Part shown: piece after piece, positions 11,599 through 63,486 of the stretch
Position numbering within the stretch: the stretch's first letter is position 1
Layout: every line of letters begins with the position of its first letter
From: Apus apus
Taxonomy: Eukaryota; Chordata; Aves; Apodiformes; Apodidae
Reading direction: 5' to 3'
Length of the DNA: 64,000 nucleotides
Assembly: GCF_020740795.1 (NCBI RefSeq)
Contig: NC_067295.1
Span: forward strand, 4,898,501 to 4,962,500
The notes under the pieces: generated by a model
What the model was told of the DNA's origin: nothing
The model's database searches: none
What the model saw: only the letters and a program-made list of their open reading frames with translations
Translations under genes and position numbers: made by a program

Positions 11599-12644
11599 GC
11601 TAACTGTATTTATTAGCTGGAACATTTGGAAGGTAACTCCCTGGACAAAATATGTTCAAAGAGCCCTGGCACATTCCTCCACTCTCTTCTCTTGTATTCT
11701 GTTAATACCCTACTAAAACCTTTGACTTAAACACCTCCCTTCTGTTGTTTTCTGTGTGTAATGGCAGGTCTGCTTTAGGGAGGCTGGGCAGAGCCTGGCA
11801 AGAGATTGGATGCATGGAGATTTCCAATTGTTAGTGTCAACCCTGGCCTGTTTGTGACAGATCTATTTGCTGTGGAGAAGCTGTGAAATTGCAGCAGATT
11901 TTAGGTGTCCATAAGAGTATCCGTGCATTTCCCTGCATAGAATAATGTGTCCCTTGTGCTCTGGGCAACACCGTATAATTAGTTTGTAGAAGTTGTTTGT
12001 CTCTGAAGATCCATAAATACACATACATAAAACTATAAGGGAATAAGCAGTCACATGCTTAAAGCAAATGCATTCTAATGCAGATGAGCTTTATACACTG
12101 ATCACATTTTCCCCCCCTACACATGTGATTCCACTGCTGATCTTTCTTTCATTTCACGTAAGGCTGACCAAAAATATTTACTTTCTCTTTCACATAAATA
12201 GACTAAAATGGATGGAGAGTTTCCCACTGAATTCAAGGGCATTCAGCATTCAGTGACAAACAGCCTCCACCTGGGCTGCATGTGTTACCCTGCTCTATCT
12301 CAGAGAAGGCAAAGAAAGAAAATAAAAATTAGACACCTCAGGCAAAGGTATCAGTTCCTCTTGTCAAACATTTCCCCCTGTGATTCACTGGCATCATCTA
12401 GTGCCTCTGGTCAAAAGCTCCATTTTACAAACCAACCATGTTCCCCAACCAAGCCTTTCAACTTTATCAAGCAACTTTTTTCCATGGCCAATTCTTCTCA
12501 TTCCTTCAGTTTAAGAGACAAGACAAAAAGTTGGGTTTCTTTCTGGAGCACTCCTTGCTCAAGTGGGTTCTCCCCAATACTTGCTGTGTTGTTAACCACT
12601 GATGTACCAGCCTCTGCTGGAAAGCACAGGAGGAGAGTGGATTT

Positions 12645-13238
12645 CATGGAATCACAGATTGGTTTGGATTGGAAAGGAACATAAAGATCATCTAGTTCCA
12701 ACCCCCCTGCATGGACAGGGGCACTCCCCACTAGACCAGGTTGCTCCAAGCCCCATCCAACTTGCCCTTCAACACTGCCAGGGATGGGGCAGCCACAGCT
12801 TCTCTGGGCAACCTGAACCAATGTCTCACCACCCTCACAGGAAAGAAATTCTTCCTAATATGTATTCTAAAACTACCTTCTTTCAGCTTGAAACTGTTAC
12901 TCTTTGTCCTGTTACTCCATGCCCTGGTAAAACGCCCCTCCTCAGCTTTCCTGAAGCCCCTTCAGGCACTGGAACATGCTCTAAGGTCTCCCCAGAGCCT
13001 TTTCTTCTCCAGGCTCCACAACTCTCAGCCTGTCTCCAGAGCAGAGGTGCTCCAGCTCTCAAAGCATCTTGGTGGTCTCCTCTGGACTCTCTCCAACAGT
13101 TCCATGTCCATCCTACGCTGGGGACGCCAGAACTGGACCCAGCCCTGCGGGAAGGGGTCTCACGAGAAGGGGAGAATCACTTCCCTAGACCTGCTGGTCA
13201 CAATTCTTTTGAAGCAGCCCAGGATCCCGTTGGCATTT
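12645..13238 (-). mobile_element. CR1 LINE fragment, 3' end, minus orientation
   Basis: The left edge begins with the reverse complement of the CR1 3' terminus (GGAATCACAG followed by GGTTTGGATTGGAAAGGAAC). The body then matches what is known of avian CR1 3' sequence. Recognisable phrases include CATCTAGTTCCAACCCCCCT, CAGCTTCTCTGGGCAACCTG and, near the right edge, GAAGCAGCCCAGGAT. About 590 bases remain, so the element is strongly 5'-truncated. That is normal for CR1, which has no terminal repeats and often no target duplication. It would be read on the minus strand. Frames on either strand are remnants or shadows and do not encode an intact reverse transcriptase. It ends about 140 bases before the receptor's CpG island. 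Confidence 0.93.
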
Positions 13239-13545
13239 GACGTTAGAGTAGAAGTAGGCACTGAAGCGCCTGGTATCACCCCACCTCGCTGCAGTTGAAC
13301 CCAGAGAACCGTCAGGAGAGGAGAAGGAGAGGGGAACATCAGAAAGAGTGAGGCACTGAAAAAGTCCCTGGCACTGCCTGGCTCCCGCCCGGTCCCTGCC
13401 CCGCCGCGTCCCTGCAGGGACCTGCCCGGCCTGGGAGCTGTCCCTTCAGCACCACGGGCACCCGCAGCGCGGCCCCGCACGGCCCGGGCAGGGACTGGAC
13501 CGCACCAGCATTCCCGGAGGAGGGAAAGGGGGCCGGGGTTGTGGG

Positions 13546-14594: not shown

Positions 14595-15923
14595 ATGAAT
14601 TCCTCCTCCCCCGCCCCCGGGCCCCCCTCCGGCTCGCTGCAGCTCTGGCAGGAGGAGAACCAGACGCAAGGAGGGCTCTGGAACAGGAGCCAGGAGCTGG
14701 ACTGGGAAGAGCTGGAGCAGATGCTCTTCCTCTTTGTGAAGGAGCCCGTCACCATCAGCCTCACGGCAATGTACCTGGTGTCCTTCGTGGTGGGCTTCGT
14801 GGGCAACATCATGTCCATCAGGGTGCTCACCCGGAAGCGCCAGAGTCGGGTGTCCAGCCTGAGTGCCACCCGCAGCCTCCTCATCAACCTGGCAGTGTGC
14901 GACCTCATGGTGGTGTGTGTCTGCATGCCCATCACCGTGGGCAACCTCATCTACAAAGCCTGGGTGTACGGGGACTTCCTCTGCCGGGCAGTGCCCTTCA
15001 TCCAGGCTGTGTCTGTCTCTGCCAGCGTCCTCAGCCTGACCGTCATCAGCGTGAACCGGTACTACAGCGTGCACAACCCGCTCAACGCCAGGTCTTTCTT
15101 CACCCAGAAACGGATCCTCAGCACCATCCTGGTGGTGTGGTTGTTGTCCTCAGGGATATGCATGCCCCTCATCTTCATGAACAAACGGGATGAGATTGGG
15201 GTGGTGGAGGGCTTGCCTCTGGTGTTTTCCATCTGCAGGGAGATTTGGCCTCAGGAGAGGCTCAAGCAAGCCTACAACTTTCTGCTCTTCTGTGCCCTCT
15301 ACTGCCTGCCGGTCCTGTTCAACATGGTCATCTGCTTCCTGACGGTGCGCCGGCTGTGGAGCCGCAGCAGCCAGCTGAAGGAGAGCACTGCCCTGAACCG
15401 ATCTCTGCCAGCCTCCAGGCTGAAGATCCGGAAGAAGGTAGCGCAGATGGTGGTGGCCCTGGTCCTGCTGTTCGCAATCTCCTGGCTGCCTGTCTACCTG
15501 ATGGACATCTGGATTGATTTCAACATCCCTACATCTTTGCAGGATGTGACTCCTTCTCCTTGGATCCTGCAGCTCAGACCTTTTGCCCAGTGGCTTGGTC
15601 TCACCAATTCCAGTCTCAACCCTATATGTTATTGCTTTGTTGGGAACCTCTACAGGTCAGCCAAGGAAATGAAGAGCAAGTACCACCAAAGAATGGTGTC
15701 TCTCTTTAATTTCTCTCTGTCAGAAGGAACACCCCGTTCCTCGGTCCCAGAGCTGCTCTCTTACCGGAGTCCAATGGAGCCAGCAAGGAAGGGGCTCTCA
15801 ACAACCCCTACCATGGGCAGGAGACTTCAGGGAGGTCACAGCCATAAGAACAAGTGTGGACGCTTGAAGTCCTGCCAGCATCCACCTCTGAACACTGTCT
15901 CCAGTGAGAACACTTCCTTGTGA
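14595..15923 (+). CDS. orphan rhodopsin-class GPCR, peptide-receptor-like
   Basis: This intact, intronless coding region of 442 residues encodes a class A seven-transmembrane receptor of the plasma membrane. The extracellular N terminus carries N-glycosylation sites at N2, N22 and N30. Family landmarks are GN at 70-71 (TM1), LAVCD at 99-103 (TM2), C130 at the start of TM3 with C214 in loop 2 as disulfide partner, W182 (TM4), P239 (TM5), SWLP at 296-299 (TM6) and NPICY at 342-346 (TM7). A basic third loop and a tail of about 90 residues rich in S, T and basic residues follow. Two landmarks are unusual: NRY (154-156) replaces D/ERY, and SWLP replaces CWxP. The overall look is of the peptide-binding beta group. 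I do not recognise the specific receptor or ligand. The ATG at 14595 has G at -3 and is the first in this frame after the predicted acceptor. Confidence 0.92.
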   Translation: MNSSSPAPGPPSGSLQLWQEENQTQGGLWNRSQELDWEELEQMLFLFVKEPVTISLTAMYLVSFVVGFVGNIMSIRVLTRKRQSRVSSLSATRSLLINLAVCDLMVVCVCMPITVGNLIYKAWVYGDFLCRAVPFIQAVSVSASVLSLTVISVNRYYSVHNPLNARSFFTQKRILSTILVVWLLSSGICMPLIFMNKRDEIGVVEGLPLVFSICREIWPQERLKQAYNFLLFCALYCLPVLFNMVICFLTVRRLWSRSSQLKESTALNRSLPASRLKIRKKVAQMVVALVLLFAISWLPVYLMDIWIDFNIPTSLQDVTPSPWILQLRPFAQWLGLTNSSLNPICYCFVGNLYRSAKEMKSKYHQRMVSLFNFSLSEGTPRSSVPELLSYRSPMEPARKGLSTTPTMGRRLQGGHSHKNKCGRLKSCQHPPLNTVSSENTSL

Positions 15924-47002: not shown

Positions 47003-48250
47003 TTAGTCTTTAAGCAAGTTTTCTGGCTTGGGGTAGCCAAAGAGTACAAAATCTGCTTCATAAAGCTTGTAAAGCTGCTGCCTCCAAGCCAGTGGGATAT
47101 TGGCAAACCAGTTCTCTTCCCAGCTGCTGGCAGTCCTGTTCCGGTAGCTGGGGGGGAAGTGAAGCAGCCTGTCCACTTTGAGGAGTTGCAACAGATAAGC
47201 AGCATCCTCATCCAGTGTCTCCAGCTTCCCAATGAAATCATAGTCTATCTGGCACGGGTGGCACAGACGGTAAATCTGCCTCCAGTGCTCATTGAAGGGG
47301 ACCATCTTCTCTGTCCTGGGGTCCAGTAAGTACTGGATGAAGTCAGAAAAGGAGACTTTGAGGCCTGCCCTGAAAGCCTCTCTAACAGAGATGGGAAGGT
47401 TGGAATGGTTGGAATACAGCTTTAGCATGGGGATGGCAAAACGCTGGTAGAACTCCTCATTCTCCAGCTCAAACTTGCTGCGGAAGGCAGAGATGAGGCG
47501 GACAAAAGGGTCTCGTACAAAGAGGAACTTAGTGTACTTCTTCAGCTTGATCTTCATCAGGTGCCGGGAGAACTTCCCGTAACGGCGCCAGAACTTATTG
47601 AAGGTCAAGTGGGTGCTGGTGTTGTGGACATGCTCCCGGGGGATATCCAGAGGGTGCCGGTATGGGACCCCCTGGTCCAGCAGGCTCTCACTTAGCACAA
47701 TCATCACCCGTTTCCAGTTGGTGCAGGCAACCTTGGGGACATAACAGTAGATGATGCCGTGGCGGTCATCCACGATCAGGTGGTTGAGCTCATAGTTTGG
47801 GATGTCATCAAAGGAACGCTCCTTGGTGGGGAAAGTGAAGCTGGAATTGGCACAAAACTCCCGCAATGTTCTCTGCCTCTCTCTCTGCAGTTTTTCTTGG
47901 TCCAAGCTGTTTCTGTCACTGTGCACAGACCAGTCATAGCCCCGCACATTCTCCTCCAAATTGCTCCCCACGGGCTTGCTGGAGCCCTGGATGAGCAGCT
48001 GCTCTGTCTTTTGGGGGACAGAGCTATTCTGTTTCAGGCTTGAACTAAGCAGCTTTGCCAAAAATTCATCCACATCTGGCAAAGCTTCCCAGCCTTCACC
48101 TGTCTTGATACCTGAAGAATGAGGCCTGGAGAAGGACGTATGCAGGTAGAAGTGAGCCGTTCCCACGTTGTCCCAGTACACAATGATCAGGAGGATCATG
48201 AAGATGGAGACCAGCACCACAGAGAGACGGAGGAGCCGTGCTTTGGTCAT
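47003..48250 (-). CDS. CHST12: carbohydrate sulfotransferase 12 (chondroitin 4-O-sulfotransferase 2)
   Basis: This enzyme transfers sulfate from PAPS to position 4 of N-acetylgalactosamine in chondroitin and dermatan chains in the Golgi. The 415-residue frame is complete in one coding exon and nearly equals the 414 residues I recall for human CHST12. It is a type II membrane protein with a short cytosolic end (MTKAR), a membrane anchor at about 7-26 and a lumenal stem. The 5'-phosphosulfate loop VPKVACTNWKR is at 171-181 and the 3'-phosphate motif VRDPFVRLISAFR at 245-257. The family-typical C terminus (FGYPKPENLLKD) is intact. N-glycosylation sites include N75, N135 and N210, with another in NRTASSW near the end. 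Identification rests on near-identity to remembered CHST12 over the catalytic part; the stem is more variable, as expected. The start is the first in-frame ATG and gives the conserved N terminus. Confidence 0.97.
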   Translation of the reverse strand: MTKARLLRLSVVLVSIFMILLIIVYWDNVGTAHFYLHTSFSRPHSSGIKTGEGWEALPDVDEFLAKLLSSSLKQNSSVPQKTEQLLIQGSSKPVGSNLEENVRGYDWSVHSDRNSLDQEKLQRERQRTLREFCANSSFTFPTKERSFDDIPNYELNHLIVDDRHGIIYCYVPKVACTNWKRVMIVLSESLLDQGVPYRHPLDIPREHVHNTSTHLTFNKFWRRYGKFSRHLMKIKLKKYTKFLFVRDPFVRLISAFRSKFELENEEFYQRFAIPMLKLYSNHSNLPISVREAFRAGLKVSFSDFIQYLLDPRTEKMVPFNEHWRQIYRLCHPCQIDYDFIGKLETLDEDAAYLLQLLKVDRLLHFPPSYRNRTASSWEENWFANIPLAWRQQLYKLYEADFVLFGYPKPENLLKD

Positions 48251-51300: not shown

Positions 51301-52833
51301 CTCCAGCGCCCACTCATTCTAGCATGAGAAGATATAGGATTTCAGGTAGCTTGCTTGGCTCTGCCTGCTTTTGAAGAGAGAAAGAGATGGAATGAGAACT
51401 TGTAAAAACATAGAAAAAAACCAAAATTCAGGTGGTTACCTTCCCTTGGGGCACCTGCAGTCACTCGACCCATGAAGCCTTCTTTACCCACACATCATGG
51501 TACACACCTGCTACCAGTTCTCTTAGGGAATAAGCAGTCTCTAAAGAATTTGAACCAACTTAACCTTCTGCAGGTGCAGAAGAACATACTACCATCAGCC
51601 AAAGCAGACAGATGCTATACCATAAACCCAGAAACTAATTCCATGTGCTTAGCCATCACCCAATAAATTGCTTCTCCCCAGCTTTCCAAGAAACCTAGCA
51701 CCCTTTACAGAGCAGGGATGTTTTAACCCATGTAATAACATCAGAAATTACAGCATATAAGTGCACAACATAAGCAAAAAATAGAGCTTGCAGTGCATGT
51801 TTTACCTCAACTTAACACATATATGCTAGAGACCAGCAAAAGAACATCCCCATCTACAGAGCTATCCCAATACCTTCCCTCCCACCACTGCCACAAAGCC
51901 TGGTTTGTACAGGCTTGGCAGCACCAGTCACCTCTTTTTTAATGTCCATACTTGGAAGTTGACTCAATAACCATATTTCTAAGATTTCCCAGAAGGAAAC
52001 TGTCAGAACACAGCAAGTCCTGTCTGTTCATTACCTTTGTCACAAACTTCAAGCACACCCGCCATTCCCGGCCTTCCAAGTGAAAGAAGAGTCTCAGAAA
52101 CAGACGTACCTGTACCTATATATCTATTTACCTACTTCCCAGGCCAACCAAACCCCACAACATTTGCTGTACGCCAACGCAGGGGCCAGAAGTGTAGTTT
52201 TCTGCTGTACATAGCTCAGCTCTGCACTGAAGCTCCGAACATGAAGTTTAAGCCAGACGAGCCACGCCAGCAGCAATCTCTGTGCAGCAGTTTAAAAACC
52301 ACGCTCTGCCATCGACAGGAACGCCCCGCCGAGGAGGCTGCTTCCAGGGTTTGCTTTTGCGGCCGCTGGGACCGCAGACGCTGCCGGCTCCGGGCGCAGC
52401 GCATCCCGCAGCACCACGCGGGAATCCCCGCACACGCGGCTGCTCTCAAGCCTCAGGCCCGGCACCCCGCAGCAGAGAGCGGGAAGCCGACGTTTCATAG
52501 TTTGGAGAAGAGGAACAGCCCCGCAGAGCCGCCCCGCAGACACCCGAGCGCCCGCAGACCCGACCCCCTCCCCAGCGCTGCGCGCACCTGGCCGGCTGAG
52601 CCCGCGGGCACAGCGGAGCGGAGCGCGGCGGGGCCGCCCCGGCAGCAGCTCGGCACTGGGGCTGGCGGGGCGCCGTGACGGGGTGGAACCCCCGCCGGGA
52701 CCGCCTCACCCGCGCCCCGGGCAGCGCCGCCGCCCAGCCCGTCCCCGCCGGCACCGAGCCCGGGGCCCGGCCCCGTCCGCAGCGCAGAGGCCGCCGCCAA
52801 CCCACGCCCCGCCCTGGGCGGCTCCGCGCTCAC
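48346..52833 (-). other. CHST12: probable first intron of CHST12
   Basis: Bounded on the minus strand by a strong donor (GGAG then GTGAGC) directly below 52834 and the acceptor ending at 48346. No other coding exon is visible inside. Another possible donor in the island lies near 52,585 (CCAG then GTGCGC). Confidence 0.5.
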
Positions 52834-53440
52834 CTCCCGCCCGGACAGCGGAGTCTTCCTCTCTTCCTTCCTCTCCTCCCGCTGCCCGTCCCTGTCCCGC
52901 CGCTACCCGGGCGCTGCCGCCGCCTCTCGCGAGACGCCGGGCACGGGGGTCCCCGCGGGGCCGCGGCGCAGGCGCCGCTCCGCCCGCCCGGCCCCGCTCC
53001 CGGCCCCGCTCCCGCTCCGCCCGCCCGGGCCCGCTCCCGGCCCCGCTCCCGCTCCGCCCGCCCGCCCGGCCCCGCTCCCGGCCCCGCTCCCGGCCCCGCT
53101 CCGCCCGCCCGGGCCCGCTCCCGCTCCGCCCGCCCGGCCCCGCTCCCGGCCCCGCTCCCGCTCCGCCCGGCCGGCCCCGCTCCCGCTCCGCCCGCGGCAA
53201 GTCCCGCTGCCGCCCGCTCTGCTCCCTCCGCGCGTTTCCCTTGGCCCGGCGGTCGCTCCCCGCCCCGGCCGCCGTGGGGTGCCCGCGGGGCCCCGGGGGC
53301 AGCGGGAGCCCGGTCCGCCAGGAGGGCCGGTAGCGGAGGGGCTGCCCGGTACCGGCGGACGGCACCTCCGGCTCCTCCCCACGCACGGAGCGGGACCGAG
53401 ACGCCCGTAGAAAAGCAGGGGTAGCAAACACTGAAGGGGT
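52300..53440 (-). promoter_or_regulatory. CHST12: CpG island, probable promoter and first exon of CHST12
   Basis: This is the most GC-rich and CpG-dense stretch in the window. It lies upstream of CHST12 on the minus strand and contains a good donor (exon end at 52834), so a non-coding first exon is likely just to its right. The KIF19-like gene ends about 2.5 kb away and runs in the same direction, so the island is not that gene's promoter. Long frames inside it on both strands are products of stop-poor GC-rich sequence. Confidence 0.75.
52976..53198. repeat. GC-rich minisatellite in the CHST12 promoter
   Basis: Irregular tandem copies built from CCCGCTCCCGGCC and GCTCCGCCCGCCCGG modules fill about 220 bases. 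The C-runs on the plus strand mean G-runs on the minus strand, which is transcribed as sense toward CHST12. Confidence 0.9.
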
Positions 53441-55903
53441 TTCTGTCTCCTCAGAGCTCTCTGGGCTGGGGCTGCATTGCTAACCCCATCCCCCCTCCTT
53501 CAAGCAATTACGTGAGGAAACTCACTTTTAAGTTCATTACAGGTTGTATGGAGGACTCGTACCACACCATAACCATGTGTGGGTATTGAATGTTCCTTAG
53601 GGGCTGCAGAGAGAAGAAACCCCCCTCAGCACCTGCCCTGTGCCTCACCCTGAGATGGACACAACGTCCCAAGACCCGACGTGGCTGCTTGCTGGAGCAA
53701 AGGGTCTTTATTAGGAACAAAGTATAAATCACTGGGTACAGCAGGGCTAGAAAATGCTGCTTGAAAAAGCTCAGAACGCTTTAAGCTCTCTTTGCTACTC
53801 TGTATTGTTTGTGATCAAGAAAAATCAAAAAGCCATTAGCCCAGGACTGAAAACGAGCATGGTCCCACCCTGTGCAGGAGATAAGCCTCAGCACCAGCAA
53901 TTATCAAAGATAAAAATGATCATTTACAGATTCCCCCTCAGAGATCTCAATCCCCAACATTTATTAGCAAACTTAAAATGTAGGGGTTACAAACAAGGGA
54001 ATTAGCGCATCACGTGGGTCTGTATTTCTCACAACAGGCATGGCAAATTATCCAACTTCATTACACAACATCCCTCCAGAGTTACAGCTTCAAAGCAAGG
54101 CATTTAGCTTAAGTGTCCCACTCTGTACAAAATAGCTGCAAACACTGCAACGTTTCATGGTGATTCAGCCCAAAGGTATTTGGTGGGGATGTATACGCTT
54201 GGAAAACTCCCATTTTCCCTCACTTTTGGTCCTTCAGTGTTTGCAGGTCACGTGAGGTCCTGTAAACACAGGCTTGGCTCAAGACCTGCTGGCACAGGTT
54301 TGTTTTACACAGTCTGTGCTTATTTTATCTGTGTGCCTTTTTTTTTATATCTTTGTTTATCTGGAAGCGTCAGCCTCGGGGGACAAGTATTCCTGACCTT
54401 CTACTTCACCATCACACCTCTTCCTGCTTCTTTCTGTTTAATAAGGAAAATCAGCTGCTTGCTGTAGCAGCTCACACGCTTGCATTTCATCCTCACTTCA
54501 GGGGTTTAAGGCATTTTATGAATGCAAGCAATCTAGGCTTCCTCATCCCTGAAGGAATCCATCCCTCATCTTCCTGACACACAGCAAAGCAAGAGGCAAA
54601 GAGGGGGTGTGTGCAGTGCCACGCAGCAAGTCAGGAAGGCCACACAGAATTCTTCACAAATGCTGCAGCTGTAAAAAAGGTTCTTCATCCACTGGAAAAA
54701 TGCACAAACCTACCCAAGAATGTCACCTTAGACACTTTGGCAGACCTAGGAGGGAAGCCGTTCCTCTTTAGGGCACGGAGTCACTATTCATGCAGTGCCC
54801 TGACCAGAACCACTTTATTTGCTGAATATTTAAAAAGCAGGGAAAATACTTTTTACAAGCCCCTTATGTGGAAGGCTGCTGGCTGGAGACAAAAGGAAAA
54901 AAACACATTCCTGCAGTTTACCTCCAGGCTCTCTCTTATCAGGGTCTTCACCTATCACGTGCTGCAGTCAGATCTGAAATGCTCTGTAGCTTGGAGCAAT
55001 CTCTGGCTGCTCTCACAGCTAAACATCTGCTCACCCAAACAGCATTCCAGGCACATGTGACACCTCCCAGCTTCACAGCGACAGCAGGGAAGAACAGGGA
55101 AACTATTTATCAGGCATTTACATTTGGTTTTAATAGTCACGGAGCCGTTTGGATTCATGGGTGGCATCCATGCTTTTGCCCCAGGAAATAAGGCGGCTTG
55201 GGCTCCATGCTGACATCTTTTGGGAGGTGAACACTGCTGGGAAAATGAGGTTTTCCTCTTCTCCTGGACTCTGTTAACATCCTACATGTCTTAAACTAAA
55301 GCTAAGAGCTAGAGTGCACAGTAGAGAGGAAAGACTTGTGGTCGGGATGCGGAAAAAAACACCTACAAGATGCAAGATCTGTCTCCCCTCTGCTTTTCAG
55401 CATCACAGCACAGAAACTAAAATGCATTTGAAGGCACACTCCCCCTGCATCTGCTTCCAAGACTTCCAGCACTCTTGAAATTGTCATCCCTTGGGGCCAC
55501 AGAGAATCCTGGTCACTTCTATTTAGTCTTCTGCTGGTTCCCCAAGCGGGCGACCGGCTGCTGCTTTTGCCGACTGCTGGCACCATCTGCAGGCCCTGCA
55601 AGCGAGGGAAGGTGAAGGACTTGGTCAAGTTTCTCATGCTTCCATTTGAGTCTCATTACCAGTCAAAGGGGGAAGGACAGGTTGCCATGGGCTGCAGAGG
55701 GATGAGGGTGGCAAAGGCACTAGGAGAGCACACAGTTGCCATAAGGTGACACTTCCAGTGGCAGCAGTGGCTGTCACACAGCTAACTCTGATTGAACTCT
55801 GCACTTCACATATGGATCAGACTAGGATTATGAACACCTCGAAAAATGTTATTTTCTCCTTCCTAAGACGTTATTTTTGGTTAAGAGGGAGATGGAGTAT
55901 AAC
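53441..55903. other. interval between CHST12 promoter and KIF19-like stop codon
   Basis: No coding exon is recognised. On the minus strand ATTAAA (55129-55134) and AATAAA (54814-54819) are possible polyadenylation signals for the KIF19-like gene, about 0.8 and 1.1 kb beyond its predicted stop. The right part is therefore probably 3' UTR and the left part spacer. Confidence 0.45.
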
Positions 55904-55932
55904 TCATTCTGGAACACTGCCCATGTCATCTG
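55904..55932 (-). CDS. KIF19-like, terminal coding exon
   Basis: An excellent acceptor (long T/C tract then TGCAG) is followed by two bases that complete the split codon, eight sense codons (reading DDMGSVPE) and TGA. The phase fits the preceding exon exactly. If this exon is skipped, read-through of the previous exon would stop at 56018. Confidence 0.6.
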
Positions 55933-58900
55933 CTGCAAAAAAGAAAAAGGCTTAAAACTTGGCTGTTAAACCCCTACCCATGTGACTGCTTTCCCAACTG
56001 GTCCGTTTGTGTCGCATTTACAGCTCTTTAGGTTCAGATTGCAACAGAACAAGTGCTGAAGGATACAGTAGTACCTCCTGGGTATACCAGTACTCCAGTA
56101 TACCAGTACACCAGCCAACCTGATGTATGAACTCACCCTTGACTTGCTTCTGTAGGACCCGACCTTTGATGCGATCAGCTCTGCTCTGTGGGATGGTGCT
56201 GGCAGGAGCATCGTGTTTTGGCAGCACCTCTTGTGGAGTCCCCTCTATCAAAGGCAGGGACAGCTTCATTATGGACAGTGGGAGCACAGCACAGTTGAAA
56301 CACATTTTTCAATAGTTGCCAATATAAATTACAGTGTTGTTAATCAAAAGTTAACAAATTTTTAGTAAAAAGCACCTCTTGCCAGAATAGGGAAGGATTC
56401 TGGCTACATTTCAATAGGATTTGGGTATCCAGGTCCCCTAATCTCATCCTGGCCTTGTGTGTCTGCAGAAAGCAAAACAACTGAACTGACAATCAGTCAG
56501 TGTAGCCTGTCCTGTCTTGGTCTCCTTGCTGAGGTTTGGTTTGGCTGTGAGACTGCCTGGGTGATCAGCCCTTTGTGGCATGTGAATGCAACTGAACACT
56601 AATTCTTCCCTCTAGATTACAGGGGCATAGTTGAGGCAGTGGTCTGCAAAGGATATGCTTTCTTACACATCAAAAGCTACTTAGATGATATTAAAAACAA
56701 ATTAGGATGAGATTCTAACATTGGCCTTTACTCCAGCTTATTTCTCACATTACAATCCATCTTTTCCAACAGAGGTGATGCAGGATGTTGGCCCCTACCT
56801 GAATTGGGGCTGATAGGAACCTTGGCCTTTGCAGCACTGGATGTGCTACTCACAGCTTCTGACTGATGGAGGAGTCTAGCTGGGTGCAGGTGGTTCCCAC
56901 GAGCTTTGTCTCCACTGGGGCTTAGGGGAGTCCAATGCTTAGCTTTCGAGGTCTGAAAATACACCAAGTTAAGCTCAGTAGTGATGTCTCTCACCTCTGA
57001 TTGTTGCCACGCTGTACCAAAAAGATTCTCTTCACACCTGAGTTTAGCTTATCCAGCTGTTCAGGCAGGAGGTGAAGGGCATTACAGAAGAAGAAAGATA
57101 GTTAACTTATTTCCTCATGAAGTTTGTACTATGTTTCTCTTACCATATTTAAAAGCCGCCCTAGTTCCACTGGGTCTATGCCTTCTGCTCAACCCATTCT
57201 CATTAGAAAGAAACACAAAGGATCTACCCTGTGGAAGTTTGGTTTGAGGGAGTGAGATCTTTTCTTTCTGGCTGTCTTCTCAACAGACATCTCCTGGTCT
57301 CTTCCATTCTTCAGCACTCCCCTGGCTGGGGACCACAGCTGGGTCCCAGCTGAGGGGTCTAACACCAAACTCCTGACACTTACTTTGTCTCTTGTCTGAA
57401 ATTCCAGGGTGGAATTGGCCTCTGGATACTTCAGCTCAAGCATATCCTGCTCCTCAGAGAAGTGGTCTGAAGAGACTTTGCTCCCTGGGTCTCTGTGTTG
57501 GGCTCTGGAATGGTGACTGGCTGCAATGAGGGAGATGCTTTTCATGTTGGCTGCAATTTCCTTCAAGGTCTCCAGACTCAGTGGAACAGCAGCAATGTCT
57601 GCAGGTGACTTTTTCCCATGCAGATCTAGAGAGGTGGGGGAACTCGGCCTGGGAGTCATCCTTCTTGCAGCAACACCTTTTGGTTTTTGCTAAAAGTCAA
57701 AGCAATTGCAGCATAATAGGCTTTTTATTCAAAGCTTTTATTCTTTTCCTCTTGAAAGCACTTTCAAACATTTGGAAGACATGCAATTTCATCACAATTG
57801 TTATAATGACTTCTATGTATAGAGAAACAAAGGCAAAGCTTTTTGACTCTGTATCTCCCACAGAGCCAGGCTACAAGAGGACTCAGCTGGCAAACAAGAG
57901 ACTGATGAACTCCTGATGCTCCTTTCTGTTCCAGGATGCTGAGTAAAATTGGTCTCACTAGATAATCATCAAAACAGGGCCCAGCAGATCAGTTAATGGC
58001 ATAAAAGGAGGTGACCATCCTGGACAGCACAAGTCCCCTCACACCAGACCATGCATTGTAGGACTCCTATTTACAGCACCTGTCATTCTGCTGGACACAC
58101 TGTGGTTCACACAGAGGGAAAGCCTAAATTGGAGGTGGCAGCTAAGCCTTGGACTCTTCAGGGAATTCCAGGCCTTAAACCCAAGGCCAGTGCTCTAAGA
58201 GTGATTGTACTGCCTGCCAAGGTTTACCTTCCTCACATAGAATAGATTCAGCTGCTGTGCACGTTCTCCCATCACAAGGGAGGTGCTAACCACAATGAAT
58301 GTGCCTTGAATTCAGTTCCTGACATACTGACCTGCTGAACTGGAACTCTCAGCAAAACAGAGGAAGTTGGGCTGAGATGACCCTTCCCACAGGGTGTGGT
58401 GTTAGATGATCTGCAACTGCCACTGTGAAATGAATACACCAAGAGGTTAATAGATGAATGCACAGACCTTGTATCAACAGGGAGAGATGAAACCTGTCTA
58501 GGGGAGAGCTTTCAAGCTGTGGGGAAAGCCAGAAACCTGGTAAACAAGGTAATAAAGAACACAGCAAGGAAGGACTTGAGGATTTATGAAGGAGTGAGGT
58601 TTTGTCCCCTGATCCTCACAAACTTTGCTACTTTATTTGGTTTAAATGCTTGTCAACAGGAGCAAATCCAAACACCTCCCATAGCCCCCTCAGCAGAGAC
58701 AGTTCCTACTAAAACCCAGAGCTATTTTGCAAGAGGAAACTCTTGCAATATACCTATACCAGGAAACTCTTACAGATTTCAGTTTCTGGAGGTTCTTCCA
58801 GTTTGATATTACCCAGCTATGGGGATTTAGCTTGGAGTTGCCAGGCACCCACACCCTAGAAAATAAGTAACCATGAAAGAGTTCCACATTACCTGTCTGA

Positions 58901-61900
58901 CTGATGGGTAATGGAGGGAATGTCAAACTTCACCCCCCAGGGAAGATCCTTCACGGTCCCAGGTAGACCCTTTCTGACCTCATCTTTATTCAGATCCAGA
59001 TGCTGACTTACCTCCAGAGAAGGGCTGATGTGGGGCTGCAGGAAGAGGGAAGAATGAGATCCTCAGCTGATTTTTCTCACTGTAAAGCCCCACCTCTAGC
59101 CCTGGCTCCCAGTCTGTGGTCACAAAGACACCCTTGATACCTCATGTTTTTTTCTATAGTTCTGGCCACCTGCTATTTGCTCTTTTGTGAATGGCACCCA
59201 GAGTAGTTTCATCTCTCATATAACATGACTAGCATTAAGTTTATTATTTTAGGTGAAACCAAACTCTTCAGCCCATTCATTCTGGGCAACCATAATAAAC
59301 AAGAGACCTGCTGCTTGGGCTCCCTGCTGAACACTGGCAATTTCCTGGCAGCCCCTTTCTGTCTCAAAACACACACATGCTTTCCAAAGGCAAAAGAGCC
59401 AGCAGTGTCTTTCCCTTCTTGCAGAAAAGACCTGAAGACCTCAGTAATTGTGCCATAAGCAAGTAGAGGTCTCCAGAATGTTTGGCCATCTAACCTTTGC
59501 TTTTCTGTGTGCCACCAAGGCAGTTATCTCTCTCAAGGCTAACACAACAGCAACTAGGAGGATGAACATGCTGGCTCGTGCACAACCCTGCCTGGGTCCT
59601 TTTCTGTCTCTAAAAGCTTCATTAATTCTCTGAGTCAAAGGGAAGGAGAGCAGAGCTCTAGGGAGACAACACATTCATAAAACAAAGCTCTGTACAGCTC
59701 CTGACTAGCACCAGGACCCAGCCAGGCTTTGGGTGTATATGAGTCTATGGCCATGACACAAGATCATAGACAACCTGGATTCTCCATCAGAAGGGTCTGC
59801 TCTGCCTTACCCTGAGCATGCTGGACATCACTGAATGCAGCAGAAACAGGCGATTCAGTGTCCCCTCCTCCAACTCAGAGAGGTGCAGGTGGTGTAACCT
59901 TGCCAGTGTCTCTGGGACAGGAATATTCTGGGCTGGAGCAGAGATGGGAAGGAAAAGTTAAAAATCACTCCTAGATAAACAGCTGAGAACTGTGGACTCA
60001 TTACATCCATGACAAGGACTTCTGGGTGGCTTGTTCACTTTGGCATCAGAAAACAAAGCTCAGGAATCATGACAGAGCAGGAGCAAAGTTCTGCTTTACC
60101 TGTTATCAGCATCTGCTGCTGCTGAATAATTTCTTCACAGAGCAGCATGTGCTGCTGCAGTTGCTGGATCACAAAATCCTTCTGGCACAACAAATTCTCC
60201 TTGTACAGTGTGTTTGCCTGCAGCTCTGTGTTGCCAAGCTCAAGCTCATGGGCTCTGCAGAGGAGCCTTAGCACCTCCTGCTGATCCTCACTGGTGATTT
60301 GTCTGGGGAGAAGCTCCTCCATCTGGGAAGCTTTCTTCTTGGCATTTGCTAAGTGCTGCTCCAGCTCTGTCTGAAAAAGATAGAGAGGGGTTGTCAAGGC
60401 AGTTTGGCTTCTTGGGATAACAAGGGCATGTGAACAAATCTGTGCTATGTCCTTCAAGCTGAGATTAAAATAACATCTACAAAAAGTATTTTGCTTATTC
60501 TATTAGCAGCCACCATGTTTCAGTCATGGCAGATAGATCCACAGGTGCACAGGCCTTGCCTAGAGGAACTCACAAACGTTAACATTAGGTAACAAAAAAC
60601 AGGATTACCAAAAGACTGAACAACCAGTGAGTGAAAAAGCCCTAAAAGTGTCCCCAAAAAGGGAAATGGAAGAATGAGATCTCTTATGGGTGGCTGAACC
60701 CAAACAGTGGGCTTGTGATTTTCCCTTGTCCTAAAAAACACAAGGGACAGAGGCAGGATGTTCCCATGCTGCTTCCTGCAGCAGCCCCAGGTATTTAGGA
60801 GCCCAGCTGTGGTACAGGTTCCACACTGCTCTTGTGGTGCTGGCCCAAAGCCACAAGCACCTCTCTGACTTCTGCTGCTGCCATCCTGCCCCTCAAGCAC
60901 CCACTAGGCAGAGGTCAGACTTGCCACTGTAAGGACACCTTCACCTCCTCACCTTCAGGGCCACCGTCCTGCGCTGTTCTGCCAGCAGCAGGTCGATCTC
61001 TTCTCTTGCTATTGTAACTTCATGAGGTTCAGGTGAATCTATGATCTCTGCTTCTCTGTCTTCCTCCTCTGCATGTTCATCTTTTTCCTCCTTTGCTGGC
61101 TTGTCATACTTGAATGCACCCTGAGCCTTCTCTCGTTCCCAGCTGCCAGCACAAAAGGAAGGAACTTCTTAGGACACAGTGTCATAACTCAGTGATGCCC
61201 TACATTGTATCTGTCCAGCTCCTTCTTGTGTGGCAGCAGTGGAGCTAATTAGTCCAGGCTACTCTGTAGCTGGACAGACCATGCCAAAGAGCACAATTAG
61301 TTTCCTCCCATTTGGAAACGTGTAAGACTGGCCTCCTGTGTGATCTTTCCATGGCACGGGGAACAGTGCCTTTCCCCATTCTCATCACAAATTGTTCACA
61401 GTTCACAGGTACTCGTTGAAGACCTTTAATGTCCTGAAGACTGTTTTAACTACACAAATTACCCAAATCTTAAGAGACTACAACATTTACAGAGGCATTA
61501 AGAGGGTGACTAGCAACGATGAGAGAGAACTGACACTTATTTAGAGTTTATCCAGAAGAAAGGGATAAGGCAGATTTCTCTGACGTGAAATTATGACCAG
61601 ATGCAGTACATATGGATGGAAAACACAAACACAAGAGGACTGGAACGTGCAACGACCAACAATCTCAGACTGTGCTGCCATCCAGTTTTTCCATTAAAAC
61701 ATGAGTCCAGAATAAGGTCCAAATAGAGGTGAAGAATCTGCTATTTAAGCTTTGAGTCCTGAGCTTAAGCTTGATGATAGAGGTAGCAGGTTGCCTTACT
61801 GAGCTACATCAGGCAATTGCACTGCAGTGCAGCACAGTGTGCAGGCTGCAGTCTCCTTACAAGCACCAGGAGGGATTAGGGATGTGCTTCTCAACAGCAG

Positions 61901-63486
61901 AAAGCACCCGTTGCAAATATAGCACCTTAATCTAAGGCTCAGAGTCGCATGGATTTAAGCTACCCTAAATCCCTGGGTACCTTTTACAGACCACCACCCT
62001 GTCAAGTTTCTCCTCAGCACATAGGTAGATCTCAAATCTACACTTGATCTTTCTGCATGAACAATTAAATACTCTCTTTAATAGCATCCTTTGGTCATTT
62101 TTGTTGGGGGGTGTGTGTGTGTGTGTGATAACGAGATATTAATATTTCTCATGGGGCGTTTGGAGGTCCATGTATAAATTGTGCTCAGAGCTAAGGAGCT
62201 ACTCACTCTGTGATTGTCAGGAGGTGCCTGCAGGTATCCATGTGCAGATCAATGTTGGTGTTTTCCAGCTCCATCAGGCTGCGGCGCATCTCCATTTGCT
62301 CCCTGAAAGCCCCCATCAGCTGCGCCCGCAAGGCCTTCATTACTTGGCCACTGGGTGCCTCAGAGCCTTGGTGCCTCTCTGCTGCAGGAGAAGACTTTTC
62401 TGAGCTGACAATAGGCCATGAAAACTTCTGCCAAACCCCCCAAAACTACTCTGGGACCAAGCCACTCAGTCCACATGTTACAAAGTCTGTGTTTGTAGGA
62501 CTCTGCTTCATTCTCTGGTCTCTTGAAGTTAATCACGTGGTGAAGAAATCTATCTTTATGACTGTATTATTAGCAATAAATAGGTCTCATTGTACTGCTT
62601 TTGTCAGTATCAGGAGGATACTGCATTGCAGGCACATCTCTTCCCCCTTTCCACCCACCAAAAAGAAAAAAGTATCAGTTTTCTGTGCTTGTTATCTAGA
62701 AATGACCTTGTGTGTTGGTAACAAAGACCTGTTCTACCTCATGTTTTATCTGTCAGAGAACTTGATTATTTTTATTTCATTCCTTTCCAGATTCAACAAC
62801 AAAAGGAACAATCCCCAGGACAGAACAATCAATGTTTTAAAAGCTTTGCCTGCCCCCTCTCCCTATTTTATTTATTTTTAATTGGGTACAGTGAACCATA
62901 CAACAGGGCTCAGTGTCCTGATGTGGCCATAGAGCCTGTGGTGACACAGGCTACAGACTCAGGACACCTCTCTGTAGGAGTCAGGACTTTCCACAGCAAA
63001 TGCCACCATTTGATGTCAAAACTCTTTTCAAGGGCAGGTTTGCAAAATTTAACACATTTTAATGTTGGGGAAGATGCTGAGAAGGTTGTGTTGGCCAGCA
63101 TCATACAGCTCACCAGAGACAGGCTCACATAGAAGAACAACTTCACGCCCCCTGCCTGCCTCCTCTGCCCATCAGACTGTGTTCTCCTCTCTGGTTCCCT
63201 ACAAGCATTGTTGAGCTGCCCCTGCTATGTCTACATGGAGGCCCAACCAAGTGCTACCACAATATGTCCACACAGCTCCTCTCCCAGCTCCCTTCCCTGC
63301 AGTTACCCCAGAACAGTTCTTGTTCCTGGCTCTACCTTGCAGATCCCCGAGGTCAGAGCTGACTGCACTTTTCTTCTCCTGGTTTTTGATCCTCTCCTTC
63401 AGATACTCTATCTCCCTGCTGAGGTCCGTGATGATGCTGGTGTACTGGTCGATGTGGCAGGAGACGTTCTGCAGGTTACATTTTAC
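55904..63486 (-). CDS. KIF19-like kinesin, 3' part (11 exons, motor domain outside window)
   Basis: Eleven minus-strand exons with GT-AG borders and matching phases join into 1,896 coding bases (631 residues and a stop). They start at the neck just after the motor domain. Recognition rests on two stretches that closely follow human KIF19 as I recall it: NVSCHIDQYTSIITDL in the first exon and QQEVLRLLCRAHELELGNTE in the fourth. The charged segment between them and the ELEEGTL stretch after them align in order without gaps of a whole exon. KIF19 is a kinesin-8 that walks to and depolymerises microtubule plus ends and limits cilium length. The tail diverges but keeps a basic patch (ARKKRSHS). 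No frameshift or stop interrupts the frame, so the gene appears functional. It could be the KIF19 orthologue moved here or, more likely given its place beside CHST12, an ancient duplicate. The motor exons should lie above 64,000. Confidence 0.85.
56082..56113. repeat. 16-base tandem duplication
   Basis: GTATACCAGTACTCCA is followed directly by GTATACCAGTACACCA, with one mismatch. It sits in the last intron of the KIF19-like gene, about 25 bases beyond an exon donor. Confidence 0.9.
56137..56244 (-). CDS. KIF19-like exon, tail
   Basis: This is 108 bases, entered in phase 1 after CCTTTGATAG and left in phase 1 at AAGG then GTGAGT. It encodes a polar, basic tail segment (ending GRVLQKQVK). The acceptor is weaker than the others; the phase match supports it. 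Confidence 0.6.
56799..56952 (-). CDS. KIF19-like exon, tail
   Basis: This is 154 bases, from TATTTTCAG to TCAG then GTAGGG. It encodes a serine- and proline-rich basic segment, TSKAKHWTPLSPSGDKARG and onward, as expected for a disordered kinesin tail. Confidence 0.7.
57228..57689 (-). CDS. KIF19-like exon, long tail exon
   Basis: This 462-base exon is entered and left in phase 0. It starts after GACTTTTAG and ends AGG then GTAGAT. It carries the basic patch ARKKRSHSLKP near its end, which resembles a basic, serine-containing patch in the KIF19 tail and may bind microtubules or act in nuclear import; both roles are inferred. Read-through would end at a TGA at 57189. Confidence 0.75.
58332..58422 (-). 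CDS. KIF19-like exon, tail
   Basis: This 91-base exon runs from TTTCACAG to GCAG then GTCAGT. One base completes the split codon and 30 codons follow, reading GSCRSSNTTPCGKGHLSPTS and onward. Confidence 0.7.
58893..59035 (-). CDS. KIF19-like exon, tail
   Basis: This 143-base exon runs from CTTCCTGCAG to ACAG then GTAATG. It begins PHISPSLEVSQHL and ends in the middle of a codon that the next exon completes. A GTAAGT inside it (after SLE) could act as an alternative earlier donor. Confidence 0.7.
59811..59932 (-). CDS. KIF19-like exon, ELEEGTL region
   Basis: This 122-base exon runs from CTGCTCCAG to CAGG then GTAAGG. It encodes a helical segment with HLSELEEGTLNRL, which parallels the ELEEGSLEQ region recalled from KIF19. 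Reading on into the next exon is in phase. Confidence 0.8.
60100..60370 (-). CDS. KIF19-like exon, conserved coiled coil
   Basis: This 271-base exon runs from TCTTTTTCAG to ACAG then GTAAAG. It encodes the best-conserved part in the window: MEELLPRQITSEDQQEVL, then CRAHELELGNTELQ, then CEEIIQQQQMLI. These line up with the KIF19 coiled coil in order and spacing. Confidence 0.9.
60953..61142 (-). CDS. KIF19-like exon, charged segment
   Basis: This 190-base exon runs from GCTGGCAG to GAAG then GTGAGG. It begins WEREKAQGAFKYDKP, has a glutamate-rich acidic middle, and ends with the helix REEIDLLLAEQRRTVALK. Confidence 0.85.
62109..62127. repeat. (GT)n microsatellite
   Basis: About nine GT units in an intron of the KIF19-like gene, following a G-run. 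Confidence 0.9.
62207..62381 (-). CDS. KIF19-like exon, helical segment
   Basis: This 175-base exon runs from CTCCTGCAG to CAGA then GTGAGT. It reads MKALRAQLMGAFREQMEMRR and then LENTNIDLHMDTCRHLLTI, parallel to KIF19 (REQL, FQEQM, DTSRHLLTI). Confidence 0.88.
63336..63486 (-). CDS. KIF19-like exon, neck after the motor domain
   Basis: This 151-base exon runs from GCTCACCAG to AAGG then GTAGAG. It begins VKCNLQNVSCHIDQYTSI, the sequence that directly follows the kinesin motor in KIF19-type proteins, and continues as a coiled coil (REIEYLKERIKNQEKK). The preceding motor exon is not within the window. Confidence 0.88.

Follow-up and report, generated by a model that had tools for sequence, protein, structure and literature searches.

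A second KIF19-type kinesin-8 gene resides in the genome of Apus apus, on contig NC_067295.1 (C15 hereafter), and is distinct from the orthologue of human KIF19, found on another contig (C18). Its 3' half was noticed in the window, the stretch of 64,000 nucleotides which was analysed (C15:4898501-4962500). We consider it likely, with a probability of about 0.84, that the gene is functional and has survived as a duplicate since the early whole-genome duplications of vertebrates (2R), in a block which also holds CHST12 and EIF3B-, fringe- and TTYH-like genes; in the partner block the orthologue of human KIF19 resides beside TTYH-, DNAI2- and BTBD17-like genes. The gene is intact and made by 20 exons, KIF19 occurs at two loci, the neighbourhoods of the two are paired, and the copies have diverged as deeply as a neighbouring duplicate pair. 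We infer that the duplication belongs to 2R, and does not merely predate the bird-mammal split.

Structure of the window gene

Eleven coding exons extend on the minus strand from 63486 to 55904 of the window. Internal junctions conform to AG and GT, phases chain unbroken, and the frame ends with a TGA stop at 55904. The exons, and the open reading frame (ORF) of the neighbour that marks the locus, are listed below in window coordinates; we assume the name CHST12 for the latter.

63336..63486, minus strand: exon 10, neck and start of the coiled coil; AG and GT bounds, entered in phase 0 and left in phase 1; matches the KIF18A neck
62207..62381, minus strand: exon 11, first coiled-coil segment; only short chance-level matches in C18 (best E 0.10 over 19 aa)
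60953..61142, minus strand: exon 12, acidic stretch, another segment of the coil; without C18 match
60100..60370, minus strand: exon 13, coiled coil (LPRQITSEDQQEVLRLLCRAHELELGNTELQ); 31% identity to the C18 copy, E 1.3e-5
59811..59932, minus strand: exon 14; weakly matched (E 0.24) at the expected position of C18
58893..59035, minus strand: exon 15, tail; from junctions and phase
58332..58422, minus strand: exon 16, tail; from junctions and phase
57384..57689, minus strand: exon 17, tail; from junctions and phase
56799..56952, minus strand: exon 18, tail; from junctions and phase
56137..56244, minus strand: exon 19, tail; from junctions and phase
55904..55932, minus strand: exon 20, final codons and TGA stop; from junctions, phase and stop
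47003..48250, minus strand: CHST12-like sulfotransferase, ORF of 415 aa; Pfam Sulfotransfer_2, 5.8e-73

All eleven exons, described by the sequence-only reading as in phase and endowed with the neck and coiled coil of KIF19, are present with the ends assigned there, and the KIF18A neck matches exon 10 (42%, E 5e-4, in a search over 173 kb). The motor domain, which the same reading expected beyond the window, is encoded by 9 further exons at C15:4972144-4962669. The complete gene (C15:4954404-4972144) consists of 20 exons in one closed frame of 924 codons, 579 of which come after the motor, and the protein starts MKEQQLTVALRIRPIS. No stops, frameshifts or broken splice sites were found across the 924 codons and 19 introns. 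The protein spans the whole Pfam Kinesin domain (PF00225, positions 1-327 of 327, 5.1e-112), and the P-loop (GPTGAGKT), switch I (SSRSH) and switch II (DLAGSE) motifs of the kinesin superfamily are intact.

In the PDB, the motor best matches mouse KIF19 (568 bits), followed by three kinesin-8 chains (388-399 bits), which we take to be Plasmodium kinesin-8B, a kinesin-like chain (332 bits), some engineered chains, and KIF18A (306 bits). KIF18A shares with the window gene a kinesin-8 motor and a related neck, but the motor is nearer to KIF19, which assigns the gene to the KIF19 subfamily.

A second KIF19 locus

The other KIF19 gene resides at C18:11493589-11497628. Its exons 1-9 agree with those of the window gene in boundaries and phases, and among PDB entries mouse KIF19 scores highest for this copy too (516 bits). 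A DNAI2 exon lies upstream (1.2e-33), BTBD17 downstream on the opposite strand (TRAF_BTBD17, 2.3e-45), and a Tweety (TTYH) gene nearby, at C18:11478160-11483046. Assuming that the human order at 17q25 is TTYH2-DNAI2-KIF19-BTBD17, the C18 gene sits as human KIF19 does. The sequence-only reading, to which a single KIF19 in the genome would have been fatal, had pointed to the vicinity of TTYH2 and BTBD17 as the place of a second one; two KIF19 loci were found, and the C18 copy adjoins these genes.

The window motor, searched against the genome (1.1 Gb), had 73 matches. Those on C15 (8) and C18 (7) belong to the two KIF19 genes recognised; the other 58 (33-68% identity) lie elsewhere, and may include a further copy. 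The top two hits, single-exon kinesins on C16 and C4, were set aside as KIF3-like by eye. A third KIF19 locus was not found in a whole-genome search with the neck and coil encoded by exons 10-13. The genome also has 134 matches to the feather/beta-keratin family PF02422, in keeping with a bird.

Paired neighbourhoods

Genes on C15 are arranged in the order Tweety (4746487-4807232), fringe (4831693-4841195), CHST12-like ORF (4945503-4946750), window gene (4954404-4972144), exons of the eIF2A family (4979190-4980773). The latter are presumably EIF3B, as suggested by the human order; the search for the family cannot separate EIF3B from EIF2A, and its other matches fall on C9 only. We assume that human KIF19 maps at 17q25 near TTYH2, SDK2 and BTBD17, and human CHST12 at 7p22 near LFNG, TTYH3, SDK1 and CARD11. 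Duplicate pairs shared by two such regions, as proposed by the sequence-only reading, do recur on the same two contigs of the bird. TTYH matches in the genome are evenly split (7 of 14 on C15, 7 of 14 on C18), as are fascin matches (5 of 10 on C15, at 3.71 Mb, 5 of 10 on C18, at 11.56 Mb). Of 26 fringe matches, C15 and C18 (12.55 Mb) have 5 each, and the remaining 16, some of them in a multi-exon locus on C1, fall elsewhere. TTYH and fascin are therefore confined to C15 and C18, and fringe is found on both and elsewhere. TTYH and fringe (LFNG) are families named in the earlier reading, fascin was added here. This distribution marks the blocks of the window gene and of KIF19 as paralogous. For fascin and fringe, the partner genes are ~1 Mb off one of the two KIF19 copies, which counts against a 2R origin.

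When 173 kb of C15 were compared with 109.5 kb of C18, no common genes were found besides the KIF19 exons, and other shared ORFs matched several places in C18, as repeats do. Blocks sharing only scattered genes are what is expected of an old duplication, not of a recently copied segment.

Divergence of the two copies

Identical residues in 334 aligned motor columns number 258 between the window copy and mouse KIF19, 241 between the C18 copy and mouse KIF19, and 222 between the two bird copies. Exclusive patterns in the same columns are 30 for mouse and C18, 47 for mouse and C15, and 11 for C15 and C18. Trees were built with six or five rows, with and without KIF18A, and with a simpler model; mouse KIF19 and the C18 copy form a clade in all of them (support 94/89, 88/86, 96/94). 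The alternatives are not firmly rejected, as p-AU is 0.071, 0.095 and 0.037 in three runs for a clade of C15 and C18, and 0.0715 and 0.095 in the first two of them for a clade of C15 and mouse. Polarised shared changes are about even (6 for mouse and C18, 7 for mouse and C15, 3 for C15 and C18). The end branch of the C18 copy measures 0.35-0.43, that of the window-copy motor 0.15-0.16. Such a long branch should drift to the distant outgroup, yet the C18 copy groups with mouse, which counts for their orthology. Taken alone, the tree is suggestive of the C18 copy being the orthologue of mouse KIF19, and the case is carried by the locus. Of the tree with KIF18A that the earlier reading envisaged, the junction of mouse KIF19 and the C18 copy is obtained with moderate support, from few rows, and leaves the alternatives standing at p-AU 0.037-0.095.

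At fourfold sites the KIF19 copies differ in 73 cases out of 122, close to what unrelated third positions would give (0.70). In the fascin pair 33 of 89 fourfold sites differ (0.545 expected), and protein identity is 63%, to be compared with 66% for the KIF19 pair and 41-59% for three short Tweety pieces. This sequence comparison gives no sign of a KIF19 pair younger than the duplicate pairs nearby. The window copy and the C18 copy encode the same residue at 225 of 343 aligned motor codons, and mismatches by codon position are 86, 72 and 172. Since changes are concentrated at the third position, the protein sequence has been guarded since the copies parted, on a branch that the counts leave unspecified.

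Residues of the motor and likely function

Mouse KIF19A controls the length of motile cilia (PMC6359247), and its depolymerising activity involves residues L55, R56, H58, R59 and R61 in L2, and K290, K294 and N297 in L12 (PMC6359247, PMC5045296). The window copy retains L55, R56, R59, R61, K290 and N297, features R in place of K294, and departs from the KIF19 set at H58, replaced by N. The long basic L2, the two basic residues of L12 and N297 are thus common to the window copy and the mouse protein (PDB 5gsy, 5gsz). They differ in that L12 is two residues longer in the window copy and G341, the helix-6 glycine of mouse KIF19, is H, a change which counts against the favoured reading; the two genes differ also in locus.

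By analogy with mouse KIF19A in motile cilia, the dimer of the window protein would walk to the plus ends of microtubules, where L2 and L12 would grip curved tubulin and remove it, limiting the length of the axoneme. A search for X-boxes, the RFX consensus taken here as a sign of ciliary control, gave no support to a ciliary role of the window gene. No match was found at up to 3 mismatches in exon 1 and ~9 kb upstream (0.53 expected by chance), nor at up to 2 mismatches in the window (chance 0.38), and 3 matches with 3 mismatches were found at the C18 locus (C18:11490501-11500000, L010 hereafter; chance 0.90).

An apparently reduced C18 copy

The sequence-only reading did not foresee that the C18 copy, the orthologue of the mouse gene, is reduced and fast-evolving, and the window copy full length. 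Only 279 bp (L010:6325-6603, corresponding to C18:11496825-11497103) separate the end of exon 9 (L010:6324) from the start of the exon-13 homologue (6604). Both flanking junctions are in phase 0, and so the join of exon 9 to exon 13 keeps the frame. Exons 10-12 have no convincing counterpart on C18 or elsewhere in the genome at the level of sequence similarity. Queried with exons 10-13, the whole genome returned 4 matches on C15 and a single one on C18 (exon 13, E 1.83), 5 in total. Within 109.5 kb of C18, tblastn detected neither exon 10 nor exon 12 up to E 1, and aligned exon 11 to five short stretches. A gap or a repeat array hiding the exons was considered and discarded, as the interval contains no N, and its repeats are just four short ones, each in about two copies. 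Either a real deletion, which keeps the frame and yields a motor devoid of neck and first coil, or faulty assembly of GC-rich DNA could account for the loss. GC3 is 0.84 in the C18 copy, in contrast to 0.63 in the window copy, and the two differ also in the L2 and L12 residues, the C18 copy featuring R56H, H58G and K290Q.

If the deletion is real, the window gene is the sole complete KIF19 found in this bird. Roles may even have been swapped, a tentative view to which we give less than even odds: in the KIF19A orthologue, in-frame loss of the exons for the neck and first coil would have left a short motor that evolves fast and is probably monomeric, and the window duplicate would have kept, or taken over, the full-length dimeric function in the control of cilium length. 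A natural pair of full-length and neckless motors would permit a direct test of what dimerisation contributes to walking and depolymerisation.

Alternative origins

A retained whole-genome duplicate beside CHST12, as proposed in the sequence-only reading, is sustained by the two loci and by the paired blocks; the trees leave room for other histories. A younger duplication, within birds or sauropsids, would require that the second copy landed by chance beside CHST12. The clade of C15 and C18 that it predicts withstands the test with the mixture model (p-AU 0.071, 0.095), but sites shared only by the two bird copies are the rarest of the three exclusive patterns, each copy is closer to mouse than to the other, fourfold sites are near saturation, and members of three families are divided between these two contigs; this history is improbable. 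Slightly less probable still is the reverse assignment, in which mammalian KIF19A has its true orthologue in the window copy and the duplicate is the one on C18. The 258 identities with mouse KIF19, against 241, are in its favour; against it are the grouping of the C18 copy with mouse in spite of the outgroup pull, and the location of this copy between DNAI2 and BTBD17, the arrangement given above for human. A decaying relic devoid of function would fit the lack of X-boxes in the window and upstream, and is very improbable for a gene with 924 codons and 19 introns free of lesions, intact P-loop, SSRSH and DLAGSE motifs and a short motor branch. The history favoured here remains the retention of a functional 2R duplicate.

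Overlapping with it is the view that the window gene is the bird orthologue of a mammalian gene, KIF19B, which decayed to a pseudogene in human. We presume that the P in the human symbol KIF19BP stands for pseudogene. This orthology may hold, at odds somewhat short of even. KIF19B is assigned to kinesin-8 in a table of PMC12439720 and in the legend to Figure 2 of PMC9083010, which deals with human, mouse and rat kinesins and gives it as only predicted in rat. Kif19b, in mouse style, figures among expressed genes in PMC12810420, PMC12800911 and PMC9913820, the last of which labels it 'Kinesin Family Member 19', and KIF19BP is found in a human Ensembl list in PMC12388004. In contrast, Table 1 of PMC6359247 has one KIF19 entry per species for human and mouse. 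In the passages of these papers KIF19B is a name, given with neither locus nor sequence, and a mammal-only copy at another locus is equally possible. With these names already in print, the novelty of the gene is weakened, and so is a simple loss in mammals, of the kind that the sequence-only reading proposed for humans. The window gene could explain the identity of the obscure KIF19B. Differential loss of 2R duplicates may have occurred here as for ohnologues which birds retain and mammals have lost, for instance among nicotinic receptor genes (PMC6354393). No bird KIF19 duplicate is described in titles and abstract openings among the literature matches listed; the window gene may well be present in automatically annotated bird genomes.

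Other features of the window

A very GC-rich, low-complexity block at ~52300-53450, which contains long chance ORFs on both strands, is probably the CpG island of CHST12. The ~2.5 kb said to separate the kinesin gene from the CHST12 promoter correspond, by eye, to the interval from the stop at 55904 to the end of this block near 53.4 kb. An intact single-exon ORF for a class-A GPCR is found at 14595-15923 on the plus strand, about 31 kb from the CHST12 ORF. Among solved structures hypocretin/orexin receptor 2 comes nearest, with no better than 1e-38, and a peptide-type receptor is as far as the assignment goes. ORFs on both strands at ~12596-13295, each with several partial matches in C18, correspond to an interspersed repeat, which at a guess is CR1-like.
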